A stretch of DNA of 64,000 nucleotides from Roseovarius sp. SCSIO 43702. Its GTDB lineage: Bacteria; Pseudomonadota; Alphaproteobacteria; Rhodobacterales; Rhodobacteraceae. The stretch is from the NCBI RefSeq assembly GCF_019599045.1, contig NZ_CP080623.1, forward strand, positions 1,758,501 through 1,822,500, in the 5' to 3' direction. The notes under the pieces were generated by a model that ran no database searches, had not been told where the DNA came from, and was given only the letters and a program-made list of their open reading frames with translations. The translations under genes were made by a program, and so were the position numbers. Shown piece after piece: positions 49,807 through 61,289 of this stretch. Positions within the stretch are counted from its first letter, which is position 1, and each line of letters begins with the position of its first letter.

Positions 49807-50760
49807 TCAGCCCGAGCAGGAGGCGCCACCCAGGACGCAGAACTTGGCGCAGTGAGGATGGTTGAGCGACACGTCACGCTCGGCATCGGCCAACGTGGTG
49901 CCAAGTTCGAATTCGGGGTCATAGGGCAAAAGCGTGCAGGCCAGGACCGTGGGCGCCTCCGCGCCGCGGCGTTTCACGACCATGCGCGAGGAGGCGCACA
50001 TCACGTCCGAGGGTGATTTTCCAAGAATGTCCCAGCAGGCGGTCGTGATCTCGGGCACTTCGACGGTGTCGTCTATTTCGGGAAAGAGGACGGTCATGCC
50101 GGGGTCCTGCGCGTCGATCTCGAAGCCGTGCGCCGCGAAGAGCGCCGCGAAGCCCGCGCGGGCCTCGGCCTCGCTCTCGTTCCAGATGGTGCGTCCCGCG
50201 ACGGCCATGCGCGCGCCCGCGTCGCGCAGCCAGATCATCCCGTCGAGGGTGCGCCGGAAGGTTCCGGGTCCGCGCATTTCCTCGTGCATGGCGGGCGACC
50301 AATGGTCGAGCGAGACCCGCAGGGTGAGCCGGTCGCCGAACTCGTCGATCAGCCGGGCGAGGGGCCTTGCGACCGATTTGCGCTGCATCGGGCGCATGGC
50401 GTTGGTTAGGATGAGCACCTCGAACCCGCGCAAGAGGGCGGTGCGGGCCATGGCGCACATGTCGGGGTTCATGAAGGGCTCTCCGCCGGTAAAGGCGATT
50501 TCGCGCACGGGCCAGCGCCGTTCGGCGATCTGGTCGAGATATTCGCTCACCTCGGCCTCGGTGATGTAGACCAACCGGTCATTCGAGGGCGAGCTTTCGA
50601 TATAGCAGTTCACGCAGGTGATGTTGCAGAGCGTGCCGGTGTTGAACCAGAGCGTCCGTGGGGTGACGAGCGAGACATGCGCGCGCGGCTGGCCATCGGC
50701 GGTGATGTGCGGGTCTAGGAACTTGCCGCCGTTGGCGCAGTTGGTCGGGGTGTCTTTCAT
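49807..50760 (-). CDS. radical SAM protein with C-terminal Cys cluster
   Basis: A 317-aa radical SAM enzyme. The 4Fe-4S motif C-x3-C-x2-C is in LCNITCVNCYIESSP. The SAM-binding GGEPFMNPD follows. Extra cysteines at the C-terminus (VMCASS, LACTL, then HCAKFCVLGGASC) suggest an auxiliary cluster of the SPASM/twitch kind. The substrate is unknown. GGAGCAACG lies before the ATG. The Hint protein follows 123 bp downstream on the same strand. Confidence 0.85.
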   Translation of the reverse strand: MKDTPTNCANGGKFLDPHITADGQPRAHVSLVTPRTLWFNTGTLCNITCVNCYIESSPSNDRLVYITEAEVSEYLDQIAERRWPVREIAFTGGEPFMNPDMCAMARTALLRGFEVLILTNAMRPMQRKSVARPLARLIDEFGDRLTLRVSLDHWSPAMHEEMRGPGTFRRTLDGMIWLRDAGARMAVAGRTIWNESEAEARAGFAALFAAHGFEIDAQDPGMTVLFPEIDDTVEVPEITTACWDILGKSPSDVMCASSRMVVKRRGAEAPTVLACTLLPYDPEFELGTTLADAERDVSLNHPHCAKFCVLGGASCSG

Positions 50761-50934
50761 CGTTGCTCCGGCCTTCCAGTCGGTTTCGCGCTCTGCTGCT
50801 GCCATACGGACCTAGATCCCCCGCCTGCACAAGAAAAGTCCGCACGGCGAGGGCTGACGCCATTGTGAACGCAAGAGGGCGTGCTAGTCTCGCCCCCAGA
50901 GGGGTGCGGAGCCGCGCCCGGTGAAGGGGAGCCC

Positions 50935-58238: not shown

Positions 58239-58332
58239 GAGACGTCCCCCTCCGGCCCGTTGCTTTCGTCTATCGCGCAGACGGATCGCGGGGGCAAGGG
58301 CGGGCGAATCGTGGAGCCGGTCGGGCCGTGCA

Positions 58333-58348
58333 TTAACCATTCGCTAAC
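58333..58348. promoter_or_regulatory. CtrA-like box upstream of xthA and the repeat gene
   Basis: TTAA-CCATTCG-CTAAC, one mismatch from TTAA-N7-TTAAC. It lies 95 bp before xthA on the minus strand and 263 bp before the repeat-protein gene. Next to it, TTGTGC and GCACAA (58352-58371) form a 6-8-6 inverted repeat. Confidence 0.4.
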
Positions 58349-58406
58349 CCTTTGTGCAAATACCCGCACAAGTTGTAACGGGGTTCCGTGCTGCTCGTCG
58401 CGGTAT

Positions 58407-58415
58407 TTATCCACA
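58407..58415 (+). promoter_or_regulatory. DnaA box, perfect consensus (copy 1)
   Basis: TTATCCACA on the plus strand, followed by an AT-rich run (AAAATTTTTT). It pairs with an inverted copy 99 bp downstream. Confidence 0.55.
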
Positions 58416-58435
58416 GGTCAAAATTTTTTCCGCTC

Positions 58436-58460
58436 GAGTAGTGATGGCGAATGATCGGAG
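58436..58460 (+). promoter_or_regulatory. bipartite motif shared with 38582-38609, copy 2
   Basis: GAGTAGTGA (58436-58444) and ATGATCGGAG (58451-58460), 6 bp apart, in the same order and orientation as upstream of dksA. It lies between the two DnaA boxes. Confidence 0.5.
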
Positions 58461-58495
58461 AAACTCAAGATACTGCAGCGTGATACCCGGCGAAG

Positions 58496-58523
58496 TTGAA
58501 CGATTAAACTCGATGTGGATAAA
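58496..58523 (+). promoter_or_regulatory. possible promoter of the repeat-protein gene
   Basis: TTGAAC (58496-58501), 16 bp, then GATAAA (58518-58523); four of six matches in each box. The second DnaA box covers the -10. It would give a 5' leader of about 80 nt. Confidence 0.35.
58514..58522 (-). promoter_or_regulatory. DnaA box, perfect consensus (copy 2, inverted)
   Basis: TGTGGATAA, the reverse complement of TTATCCACA. It overlaps the putative -10 of the repeat-protein gene. Confidence 0.55.
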
Positions 58524-58610
58524 ATCAAAGGTGGAAATTCTTTCTAGACAAACACGCATAACGTGCAACCGTTTCAGGGTCTGCAACGCATAAATCTGGG
58601 GAGATAAACA

Positions 58611-59216
58611 ATGCTGACGCAACTTAAAGACGAGTTCACGATCGACACTTCCGAAGCACGCGGGGAGGCGGTTTCAACGAGCCTGCACGATGGCGGCGCG
58701 GTCGAGGCCTTCACTTCGTCGCTGGCACCGAGCATGAGCGCGGACGTGACCTCGGGCGATGCCACGGGCCTCTTCACCTCGTCGCTGGGTCCGGTCGCGG
58801 CGCGCGGCATGACGGCGGGTGAGGGCGTGGAGATGTTCACGTCGAGCCTCGCGCCCACGGCAACCGAAGCCAAGTCGGGCGACGCGGTCGAGATGTTCAC
58901 GTCGAGCCTGGCGCCCTCGGGCAATGTCGTCGCGCTCAGCGGGGACGCGACGGGTCTCTTCACCTCGAGCCTCGCACCCGCCGGGACACAGGCGGCGTCC
59001 GGTGACGCGGTGGAGATGTTCACCTCGAGCCTCGCGCCGACGGCGACCGAGGCGCAGTCGGGCGATGCGGTGGAGATGTTCACGTCGAGCCTGGCGCCCA
59101 CCGGCACGCAAGCGCGCTCGGGCGACGCCGTCGAGATGTTCACCTCGAGCCTCGCGCCGCGCGCCACGGAAGCCGCTGACGGTGACGCGGTCGAGATGTT
59201 CACGTCGAGCCTCTGA
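58611..59216 (+). CDS. protein of nine 20/21-residue FTSSL repeats, 201 aa
   Basis: After a 25-residue leader-like start (MLTQLKDEFTIDTSEARGEA, then VSTSL) the protein is repeats: Phe-Thr-Ser-Ser-Leu ends at residues 38, 59, 80, 100, 121, 141, 161, 181 and 201. Seven of the nine are preceded by a variant of the Val-Glu-(Met/Ala) type, most as GDAVEM; two by GDATGL. The linkers alternate between a TATEA and a GTQA type. The protein stops exactly at the last FTSSL. It is acidic, with no Cys, Trp or Tyr, no signal peptide and no membrane helix. GGGGAGA precedes the ATG. The function is unknown; a multi-core peptide precursor, a structural fibre or a repeat scaffold are all possible. Confidence 0.88.
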   Translation: MLTQLKDEFTIDTSEARGEAVSTSLHDGGAVEAFTSSLAPSMSADVTSGDATGLFTSSLGPVAARGMTAGEGVEMFTSSLAPTATEAKSGDAVEMFTSSLAPSGNVVALSGDATGLFTSSLAPAGTQAASGDAVEMFTSSLAPTATEAQSGDAVEMFTSSLAPTGTQARSGDAVEMFTSSLAPRATEAADGDAVEMFTSSL

Positions 59217-59226
59217 TCCGACGAAA

Positions 59227-59256
59227 CGCGGGAAGCCGGCGCGCCGGCTTCCCGCG
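59227..59256. repeat. 30-bp perfect palindrome between the repeat gene and the next gene
   Basis: Arms of 15 bp beginning CGCGGGAAGCCGGCG with no spacer. It lies 10 bp after the repeat-gene stop. There is no T run, so it may stabilise the upstream mRNA end or attenuate read-through rather than fully terminate. Confidence 0.85.
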
Positions 59257-59310: not shown

Positions 59311-60387
59311 ATGGAAAACGTCGTCCGTCTGAATGTTCCCTACAGGCAAAACGGTCCGGCCGCACGGCAAGCGGTGCTCTTGGAGGGGTTCGCGCATCAT
59401 CGGCGGAGCGAGGACGATGTCTTCTGGCTGAAGGAGAACGCGGAGCTTCTCAACATCCTGGAATGCACCGGCGCGCAGCCCGACCGGGGGGCACTTGCCA
59501 CGCATGAGCGATTCCATGACGAGATCGAAATGCGGATGGGCTTCTTTCCGCAATACTACCGTTTCCTGCTTTCGCTCTGCCTCGACCTTGAGGATCTGGG
59601 CATGGAGGGCGAGAAGGGGGCGCGACTGGTCGAATGGGTCGCGCGACAGGGCCTCGTCGAGGCGGAACTGTCGGATCTGCAACGTGCCGAGGCCCGGCGG
59701 CTGTGTCTGCGCCGGGGTGTCGATCCGGTGGGGGATGGCGCGGCGCTCGAGGCGCGGCTGCGGCGGTTCGCAGGACGCTCCGAGACCTTCGCGATGCCCA
59801 ACAAGAAAGCCGCCTACGAGCTGACCCACATCATTTTCTACCTTTCGGAATACGGCCGTCGCGATCCGGGGATCGACGAGGCGATGCGCGAGAGCCTGCT
59901 TTTCGCGGGAACGCTCGCGTTTCTCGATTTCAACGCGGATCTGCTGGCCGAAATCTGCATCGCGCTGCGCTTTGCCGGTGAAACGCCGCCCGAGGTCTGG
60001 GACATCTGGCTCCGCCAGCAGCTCACGCAGTTCTCGGTGGAGGGTGACGAGGCCGGATCGGTCGCGGATGACTATCACGAGTTCCTGATGCTCAACTGGT
60101 ACATGGAAACGACCGATGAGGGCGGGTTCGCCGGGCAGATGCCCGAAGGGCGCATCGTGTTCCGCCGGGCGCGACCGCAATCGGGGCCTCTGCGCGAATT
60201 GTCGGAATGCATATATGCGCTCGGCGCGGCGCGGAGCGGTGACTGGGACAAGATGCGCGAGCGGGTTTCCGACCGGCTGTCGGACGAGGCACAGGCCGCA
60301 TTGGCGGCCGCGGAAGCGGCGACGGGACGGTTCGACCGTTTCTTCCACGGCTTCGCGCGCGTGGGCCTGACGGGGATCGGCGCATGA
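59311..60387 (+). CDS. uncharacterised helical protein, 358 aa
   Basis: No family is securely recognised. The sequence is mostly helical and soluble. Conserved-looking blocks are THERFHDEIEMRMGFFPQYY (about residues 67-86), KKAAYELTHIIFYLSEYG (168-185) and LDFNADLLAEICIALRFAG (210-228). His/Glu residues in the first two could bind a metal. GGAG precedes the ATG. It follows the repeat gene by 94 bp and is coupled to the EamA gene (ATGA). The context suggests it acts on or with the repeat protein. Confidence 0.8.
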   Translation: MENVVRLNVPYRQNGPAARQAVLLEGFAHHRRSEDDVFWLKENAELLNILECTGAQPDRGALATHERFHDEIEMRMGFFPQYYRFLLSLCLDLEDLGMEGEKGARLVEWVARQGLVEAELSDLQRAEARRLCLRRGVDPVGDGAALEARLRRFAGRSETFAMPNKKAAYELTHIIFYLSEYGRRDPGIDEAMRESLLFAGTLAFLDFNADLLAEICIALRFAGETPPEVWDIWLRQQLTQFSVEGDEAGSVADDYHEFLMLNWYMETTDEGGFAGQMPEGRIVFRRARPQSGPLRELSECIYALGAARSGDWDKMRERVSDRLSDEAQAALAAAEAATGRFDRFFHGFARVGLTGIGA

Positions 60388-61289
60388 GACCGCATGCGGG
60401 CGGGGCCGCGATCACGATGGGCGTCGCGCTCACGGCGCTCTATACCGCGCTCATCGCGGGTGCCGACGCGATCACCAAGCTCTTCGGACAAGCCTATGCC
60501 GCGCCGCAGCTTTTCGCGGTATCGGGCTTCATCGTGGCGGCGCTCGCGCTTGCCGCCAATGCCCGGGGGCCGCGCCGGCGGGGGATGCGCACCGCCTGTC
60601 CGGGGGCGATGGCGGTGCGGGTGGTGGCGACGGTGGCCGGGTCGGTCGCGTTCTACCACGCTTTTCGCCTGCTGCCCTTCGCCGAGGTGTTCCTGTTCAT
60701 CGCGCTCATCCCGCTGATGACCGCGCTCGTCTCGGGCCCGGTCCTCGGCGAGGAGGTGCGCTCGCAGGCCTGGGCCGCGCTGATGCTGGGGTTGCTGGGG
60801 GTGTGGTGCCTCTTTCCCGGCGGGCTGAGCGATATGGGAGCGGGGCATCTCGTGGCCCTTCTCGCGGTGGCGCTTGGGACCGTGTCGATGGTCGCGTCGC
60901 GCTATATCGGGCGCCGCGACGACAACCTGCTGGCGCAGGTCTTCTATCCCAACCTGGGCCTCGCGGTCGCGATGCTGGCCGCGCTTCCCTTCGTGTGGCG
61001 GCCGATGGGCCTTGCCGACCTGGGCTGGGCCGCGGGTTACGCGACGCTTCTTTTCGGCGCGCGGTGGGTGCTGGTGGCGGCGTTGCGCGCGCTCCCGGCC
61101 TACGTGGTGACGCCGCTCATGAACCTGCAATTCGTCTGGATGGTCGCCCTGGGCGCGCTGGCTTTCGGAGAGGTGCCGGGAGTCATGGTCTTCGCGGGCG
61201 CAGCGATCATGGTGGCGGCGGGCGCCTGGCTCATCCTCGACCAGACGCTCGAGACCCGCCGGGCCACGCGGGTCGTGCCGGCGGAGTGA
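60384..61289 (+). CDS. DMT family (EamA) transporter
   Basis: A 301-aa permease of ten helices in two EamA repeats (ALIAGADAITKLFGQAY at the start; YVVTPLMNLQFVWMVALGALAFGEVPG in repeat 2, residues 236-262). It overlaps the stop of the 358-aa gene (ATGA) and so is made with it. It may export a small product of the upstream genes; the substrate is unknown. Confidence 0.88.
   Translation: MRPHAGGAAITMGVALTALYTALIAGADAITKLFGQAYAAPQLFAVSGFIVAALALAANARGPRRRGMRTACPGAMAVRVVATVAGSVAFYHAFRLLPFAEVFLFIALIPLMTALVSGPVLGEEVRSQAWAALMLGLLGVWCLFPGGLSDMGAGHLVALLAVALGTVSMVASRYIGRRDDNLLAQVFYPNLGLAVAMLAALPFVWRPMGLADLGWAAGYATLLFGARWVLVAALRALPAYVVTPLMNLQFVWMVALGALAFGEVPGVMVFAGAAIMVAAGAWLILDQTLETRRATRVVPAE

Follow-up and report, generated by a model that had tools for sequence, protein, structure and literature searches.

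The 201-residue protein encoded at positions 58,611 to 59,216 of the window (the whole stretch of 64,000 nucleotides that we analysed) is, as judged from sequence comparison, part of a widespread and coherent module of two or three genes. Our preferred reading, to which we give a probability of roughly 0.6, is that it is a multi-core, RiPP-like precursor, and that the DUF6902 protein encoded beside it would modify the repeated FTSSL cores, perhaps by epimerisation, before they are released. The features of the module and its surroundings are as follows.

58407..58415, minus strand: TTATCCACA site, first of a pair
58514..58522, plus strand: TGTGGATAA site, second of the pair
58611..59216, plus strand: repeat precursor of 201 aa with nine FTSSL units (from the ORF call, unit positions and repeat finder)
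58611..58694, plus strand: leader-like start with a conserved SLHDG at its end (alignment of four proteins)
58710..58724, plus strand: core 1, FTSSL
58773..58787, plus strand: core 2, FTSSL
58836..58850, plus strand: core 3, FTSSL
58896..58910, plus strand: core 4, FTSSL
58959..58973, plus strand: core 5, FTSSL
59019..59033, plus strand: core 6, FTSSL
59079..59093, plus strand: core 7, FTSSL
59139..59153, plus strand: core 8, FTSSL
59199..59213, plus strand: core 9, FTSSL, the C-terminus of the protein (86 of 106 precursors likewise end exactly on a core)
59227..59256, plus strand: perfect inverted repeat 3' of the precursor stop, without a T-run and not general in the family
59311..60387, plus strand: DUF6902 protein of 358 aa, related to DUF6895, with candidate active-site residues H173, D210, E214 and H256
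60384..61289, plus strand: EamA-family transporter, whose own ATG overlaps the DUF6902 stop

The open reading frame of the precursor is confirmed as real, and its description in the earlier note, as FTSSL repeats in units of 20 or 21 residues that end at the last Leu, is borne out by the unit positions. The nine units are spaced by 21, 21, 20, 21, 20, 20, 20 and 20 residues (63, 63, 60, 63, 60, 60, 60 and 60 nt from start to start), and the stop codon follows directly on the last Leu of core 9. Tandem Repeats Finder scores the array at 323 (60 nt), 358 (120 nt) and 498 (183 nt). The 40-residue super-repeat with alternating linkers that had been proposed is borne out only partially, in the later units (linkers starting APTATEA and AP[AT]GTQA); in the related precursor of L001, which has the same FTSSL core and whose DUF6902 is 77% identical to that of the window, the units are mostly monotone and 20 residues long. 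The start of the protein is indeed leader-like and distinct from the units, and its end, S-L-H-D-G, is invariant in the four aligned proteins. The "degenerate VSTSL" that had been taken for a unit overlaps this conserved leader end and is not one.

It had also been remarked that the repeat protein belongs to no named family, and this holds in Pfam, NCBIfam and PHROGs, where no family exceeds the cut-off; nine of its relatives likewise have no Pfam family over the cut-off. In an AlphaFold2 model that rests on a four-row alignment the mean pLDDT is 43.8, with short, low-confidence strands at the cores. The precursor is thus predicted to be disordered, which suits a processed chain. By a crude hydrophobicity count, at most 6 of 12 residues near the start are hydrophobic. 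In residue tables of 688 units, Lys/Arg among the leading residues never exceeds 0.06 at any unit position, and basic Kex2-type cleavage sites between units are not seen.

The gene downstream starts 94 nt after the precursor stop. Its product matches DUF6902 (PF21843) over the entire profile (1-351 of 351) with 534.3 bits against a cut-off of 27, and it also exceeds the cut-off of DUF6895 (PF21836), with the far lower score of 76.4 bits against 23.8 and over profile positions 18-232 of 289 only. In a low-identity alignment, H173, D210, E214 and H256 are common to it and three DUF6895 proteins; a profile-profile comparison with three DUF6895 proteins gives a probability of only 76%. A second look finds alpha/alpha toroids as the nearest solved folds; these serve several chemistries and are not conclusive. 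The title of a 2026 paper, cited by PMC13352647, describes DUF6895 as a lasso-peptide epimerase family; the link to epimerisation rests on that title and on a Pfam family related to, but distinct from, DUF6902.

Further, three full-length DUF6895 genes outside the family adjoin ORFs with paired similar segments. These precursor-like ORFs lie at 754-948 and 1153-1347 in L129, 2410-2838 in L130 and 1003-1407 in L132, and have neither a Pfam family over the cut-off nor an NCBIfam match. At a fourth DUF6895-like ORF (L139) there is no repeat ORF among the ORFs listed.

Repeat protein and enzyme occur together. In a scan with the DUF6902 protein, a repeat ORF ends 36-85 nt upstream of DUF6902 in all 21 loci, which by title belong to Rhodobacteraceae or their kin. 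DUF6902 is matched at E<=0.001 in 108 of 390 sampled Rhodobacterales genomes, and in 107 the match exceeds the cut-off; the 108 are spread over 47 of 139 sampled genera. None of 14 control genomes has a match. In a sample of the class there is a match in 5 of 385 genomes, and the four over the cut-off are all from the organism's own family. A profile of two adjacent repeat units, built from unaltered sequence, finds 87 of the 390 genomes at E<=1e-3, every one of them within the 108 with DUF6902. At E<=0.01 it finds 98 genomes, including 5 of the 282 without DUF6902, each with a single match at E 0.002-0.009. The earlier note had held that a lack of homologues would suggest a recent expansion without function; homologues of the repeat protein are in fact common.

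We examined 129 loci, that is 128 fetched loci and the window, with several genomes fetched twice. Nine do not enter the counts of repeats: L040 is the window again, L046 and L065 contain runs of N, L048 lies at a contig end, in L100 no precursor was seen, and in L106, L117, L127 and L128 the precursor was missed, degenerate or broken for the automatic picker, although by eye L117 and L127 do show repeats. L100 is the one locus of 129 where DUF6902 closely follows xth and no precursor ORF is visible, possibly an orphan enzyme. After merging of identical precursors 115 distinct ones were obtained, of which 106 have at least three units.

The key regularity is in the cores. We defined units by the pattern G-x5-[FY], which disregards the next four residues, and obtained 688 units in the 106 precursors, 3 to 20 in each. 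In 84 of the 106 precursors the four residues after F/Y are identical across all units, and 655 of the 688 units match the majority core of their own protein. When cores were redealt among proteins 500 times, the number of fully uniform proteins was 0.40 on average and 3 at most. Between proteins the core differs: there are 31 versions, with SSGS in 28 proteins, TTSM in 8, TSWS and TSGL in 7 each, TSSL and TSGS in 5 each, and others. At the four core positions, units of one protein have a mismatch of 0.05-0.09 and units of different proteins one of 0.37-0.68; at the remaining positions, apart from the two used in the unit pattern, the ratio of within to between is 0.65-0.91. The first core position tolerates F, Y or V within one protein. 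The other 22 precursors are not fully uniform; in some of them the unit pattern also caught a stretch that is not a unit, and some have two cores. Two different cores in one chain are seen in L056, L058, L061, L067, L068, L086 and L091, the first three of which combine STSC and SSGS. Such precursors could be switching intermediates or could make two products.

In pairs of units with the same residue, the codons differ in 0.45-0.57 for the core and in 0.33-0.55 for the spacers, with 0.22 at the F/Y position, where only two codons are available. Synonymous differences together with uniform cores indicate that the copies are not fresh duplicates and that the peptide is kept alike by selection, as if each copy must yield one product. 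The core nevertheless switches between close relatives. L007 and L008 have DUF6902 proteins that are 96% identical, with SSGS in 6 of 6 units of the former and TSGS in 7 of 7 of the latter. In both precursors the second and last units retain their unit-specific codons, so the core changed in at least two separate events; in L008 the third to sixth units have the same DNA across the compared stretch and may be copies. On a quick DUF6902 tree of 106 rows, in which the 44 of 103 inner branches with support below 80 were drawn open, the core changes at least 43 times. Where the DUF6902 proteins are at least 75% identical, 19 of the 44 pairs have different cores, so the specificity of the enzyme does not by itself determine the core; where they are less than 50% identical, 197 of the 2365 pairs have the same core. 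This pattern favours a constraint that would come from the product and not from the enzyme alone.

The module has a fixed place in the chromosome. Its order is repeat ORF, DUF6902 and often EamA, between xth and IscA-dgt: among the 129 loci xth lies upstream on the opposite strand in 124, IscA downstream in 116 and dgt downstream in 104, where missing genes are partly due to short flanks. EamA stands between DUF6902 and IscA-dgt in only 77 of the 129 and is thus not essential. The module contains no protease, no dedicated peptidase-type exporter and no known RiPP enzyme. About 8 kb upstream of the precursor, outside the module and with other ORFs between, an ORF at 49807-50805 of the window has a CxxxCxxC motif (CNITCVNC) and looks radical-SAM-like by eye.

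For comparison we took 21 xth loci, with flanks of about 1.5 kb, from 20 genomes without DUF6902. In all four from the same genus xth lies directly beside IscA-dgt, with a gap of about 50-150 nt, and the arrangement is the same in L165, L169 and L175. IscA is about 0.4-1.4 kb away in six of the 21 loci and absent from the fetched stretch in eight. Both this EamA gene and perfect TTATCCACA sites are absent from all 21. By this comparison the repeat ORF and DUF6902, with EamA in the loci that have it, appear to be gained or lost together with the upstream sites, as a unit at one site.

The TTATCCACA/TGTGGATAA word is one that we take to equal the DnaA box. There are 10 perfect sites in the 3.61 Mb genome, and two of these, at a distance of 107 nt from each other, lie upstream of the precursor. 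Of 115 related upstream regions, 71 have one or more perfect sites, compared with 0.32 in shuffles, and 38 have two or more; the sites cluster near -190 and -115 of the assigned precursor start. The pair may serve DnaA-type control or titration. A CtrA-like TTAA-N7-TTAA is seen in 21 of the 115 upstream regions (58311-58610 in the window, and its relatives) and in 0.78 in shuffles.

Multi-core RiPP precursors are known from the cyanobactins and from plants. Like them, the protein is a ribosomal precursor with a leader-like start and repeated cores with recognition-like elements, and a gene for a modifying-type enzyme lies next door and is kept with it. The differences are that the core is very short and the same in all copies of a protein, that the partner is DUF6902, that a protease and known RiPP enzymes are missing from the module, and that the modification of the core is here something we infer. 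From lasso systems the module differs in that its precursor is a tandem array. PF13471, the leader-peptidase family of lasso systems that is linked to lasso B proteins, has no match in the organism's own genome in a search that matches 2 of 14 controls. The resemblance to the family titled a lasso-peptide epimerase lies in the DUF6895 cut-off, which DUF6902 passes, and in the common H, D, E and H positions. As described in PMC10406935, MslH, the metal-dependent peptide epimerase of the lasso peptide MS-271, epimerises a residue of a ribosomal precursor, as we propose for DUF6902; a PDB sequence search gave no match between the two. Fungal Kex2-processed repeat proteins (KEPs) of the alpha-factor type, as described in PMC7329392, PMC9769878 and PMC6339444, also have one peptide in many copies with spacers between. 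Unlike these, the precursor is bacterial and has an enzyme gene attached, and Lys/Arg is not a leading residue at any unit position. By the crude hydrophobicity count a secretory signal is not clear. RiPP-type clusters of Sulfitobacter, a related marine bacterium, carry DUF692 enzymes (PMC11278168), a family other than DUF6902 despite the similar name, and the passages of that paper describe no repeat precursor.

In general, the multi-core idea of the earlier note gains support from the DUF6895-related neighbour, the co-occurrence with DUF6902, the uniformity and lineage switching of the cores, and the precursor-like ORFs beside DUF6895 genes. The same precursor could undergo a reaction other than epimerisation, such as dehydration, cyclisation or oxidation at Ser, Thr or Cys, and we regard this as possible, with the balance clearly on the other side. 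The cores are rich in Ser/Thr, DUF6902 is a Pfam family of its own, and the inconclusive toroid folds serve several chemistries; against this, epimerisation is the sole reaction named for the related DUF6895, in a paper title, and the four candidate residues are common to three DUF6895 proteins in the low-identity alignment. We think it unlikely that the modified precursor stays uncut and works in full length as a multivalent polymer, for example a metal or surface binder, with uniform cores needed by the polymer or the enzyme. The lack of a protease or dedicated exporter in the module would fit this, and the number of units varies as in a polymer. However, enzyme specificity does not predict the switching of cores between close relatives, some precursors have two blocks of different cores, and Cys occurs in some cores only, so that there is no common metal ligand.

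Quite improbable, in our view, is a structural repeat protein, either a fibre or an amyloid-like scaffold, for which DUF6902 would be a chaperone or an unrelated neighbour. The regular period and the weakly predicted strands at the cores agree with it. The low mean pLDDT speaks against it, as do spacers that vary about equally within and between proteins around four fixed residues, and the quite different precursor-like ORFs beside kin of DUF6902 outside the family. For the beta-structured scaffold raised in the earlier note we found nothing specific, and it leaves the switch of four residues across units unexplained; it is weaker than the multi-core precursor. That the array is a recent tandem expansion without function is scarcely credible: some units are DNA-identical (as in L008), but within proteins core codons differ synonymously where the residues agree, and the array is kept with DUF6902 in 47 sampled genera.

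In the multi-core reading, then, DUF6902 would recognise the leader, the G-[DE]-x-[VT]-x-[ML]-F element that precedes each core, or both, and would modify the core; inversion of one alpha-carbon from L to D is the most likely reaction. A protease encoded outside the module would cut the chain into short peptides, and these would exit through EamA or by another route. If every copy must yield the same product, selection would purge units that depart from it. As the product would differ between lineages, a lineage-specific signal or antagonist is likelier than a cofactor. More tentatively, we entertain a bacterial counterpart of the tandem pheromone precursors of yeast: each Rhodobacterales lineage would make its own peptide of 4-5 residues with a D-residue, in about 3-20 identical copies, for communication or self-recognition, from a module that is gained or lost as a unit at one chromosomal site, has paired DnaA-box-like sites and switches all its copies. 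The paired sites may then couple the module to the cell cycle.

The module is best described as a variant of the multi-core type of modified-peptide precursor, in which the core is short and the partner is DUF6902. If this is true, a RiPP-like class would be added that has its own enzyme family and a core of very few residues, together with 31 natural core sequences whose enzymes are already assigned to them, and DUF6902, a domain without assigned function in 108 of 390 Rhodobacterales genomes, would gain a testable role. The core signature predicts peptide masses that are open to search, and L007 and L008 offer a ready-made comparison of nearly identical enzymes with different cores. Uniformity within a protein combined with switching between lineages is the evolutionary mark of a single-sequence product, and the module suggests a family of bacterial peptide signals or weapons that has not yet been described.
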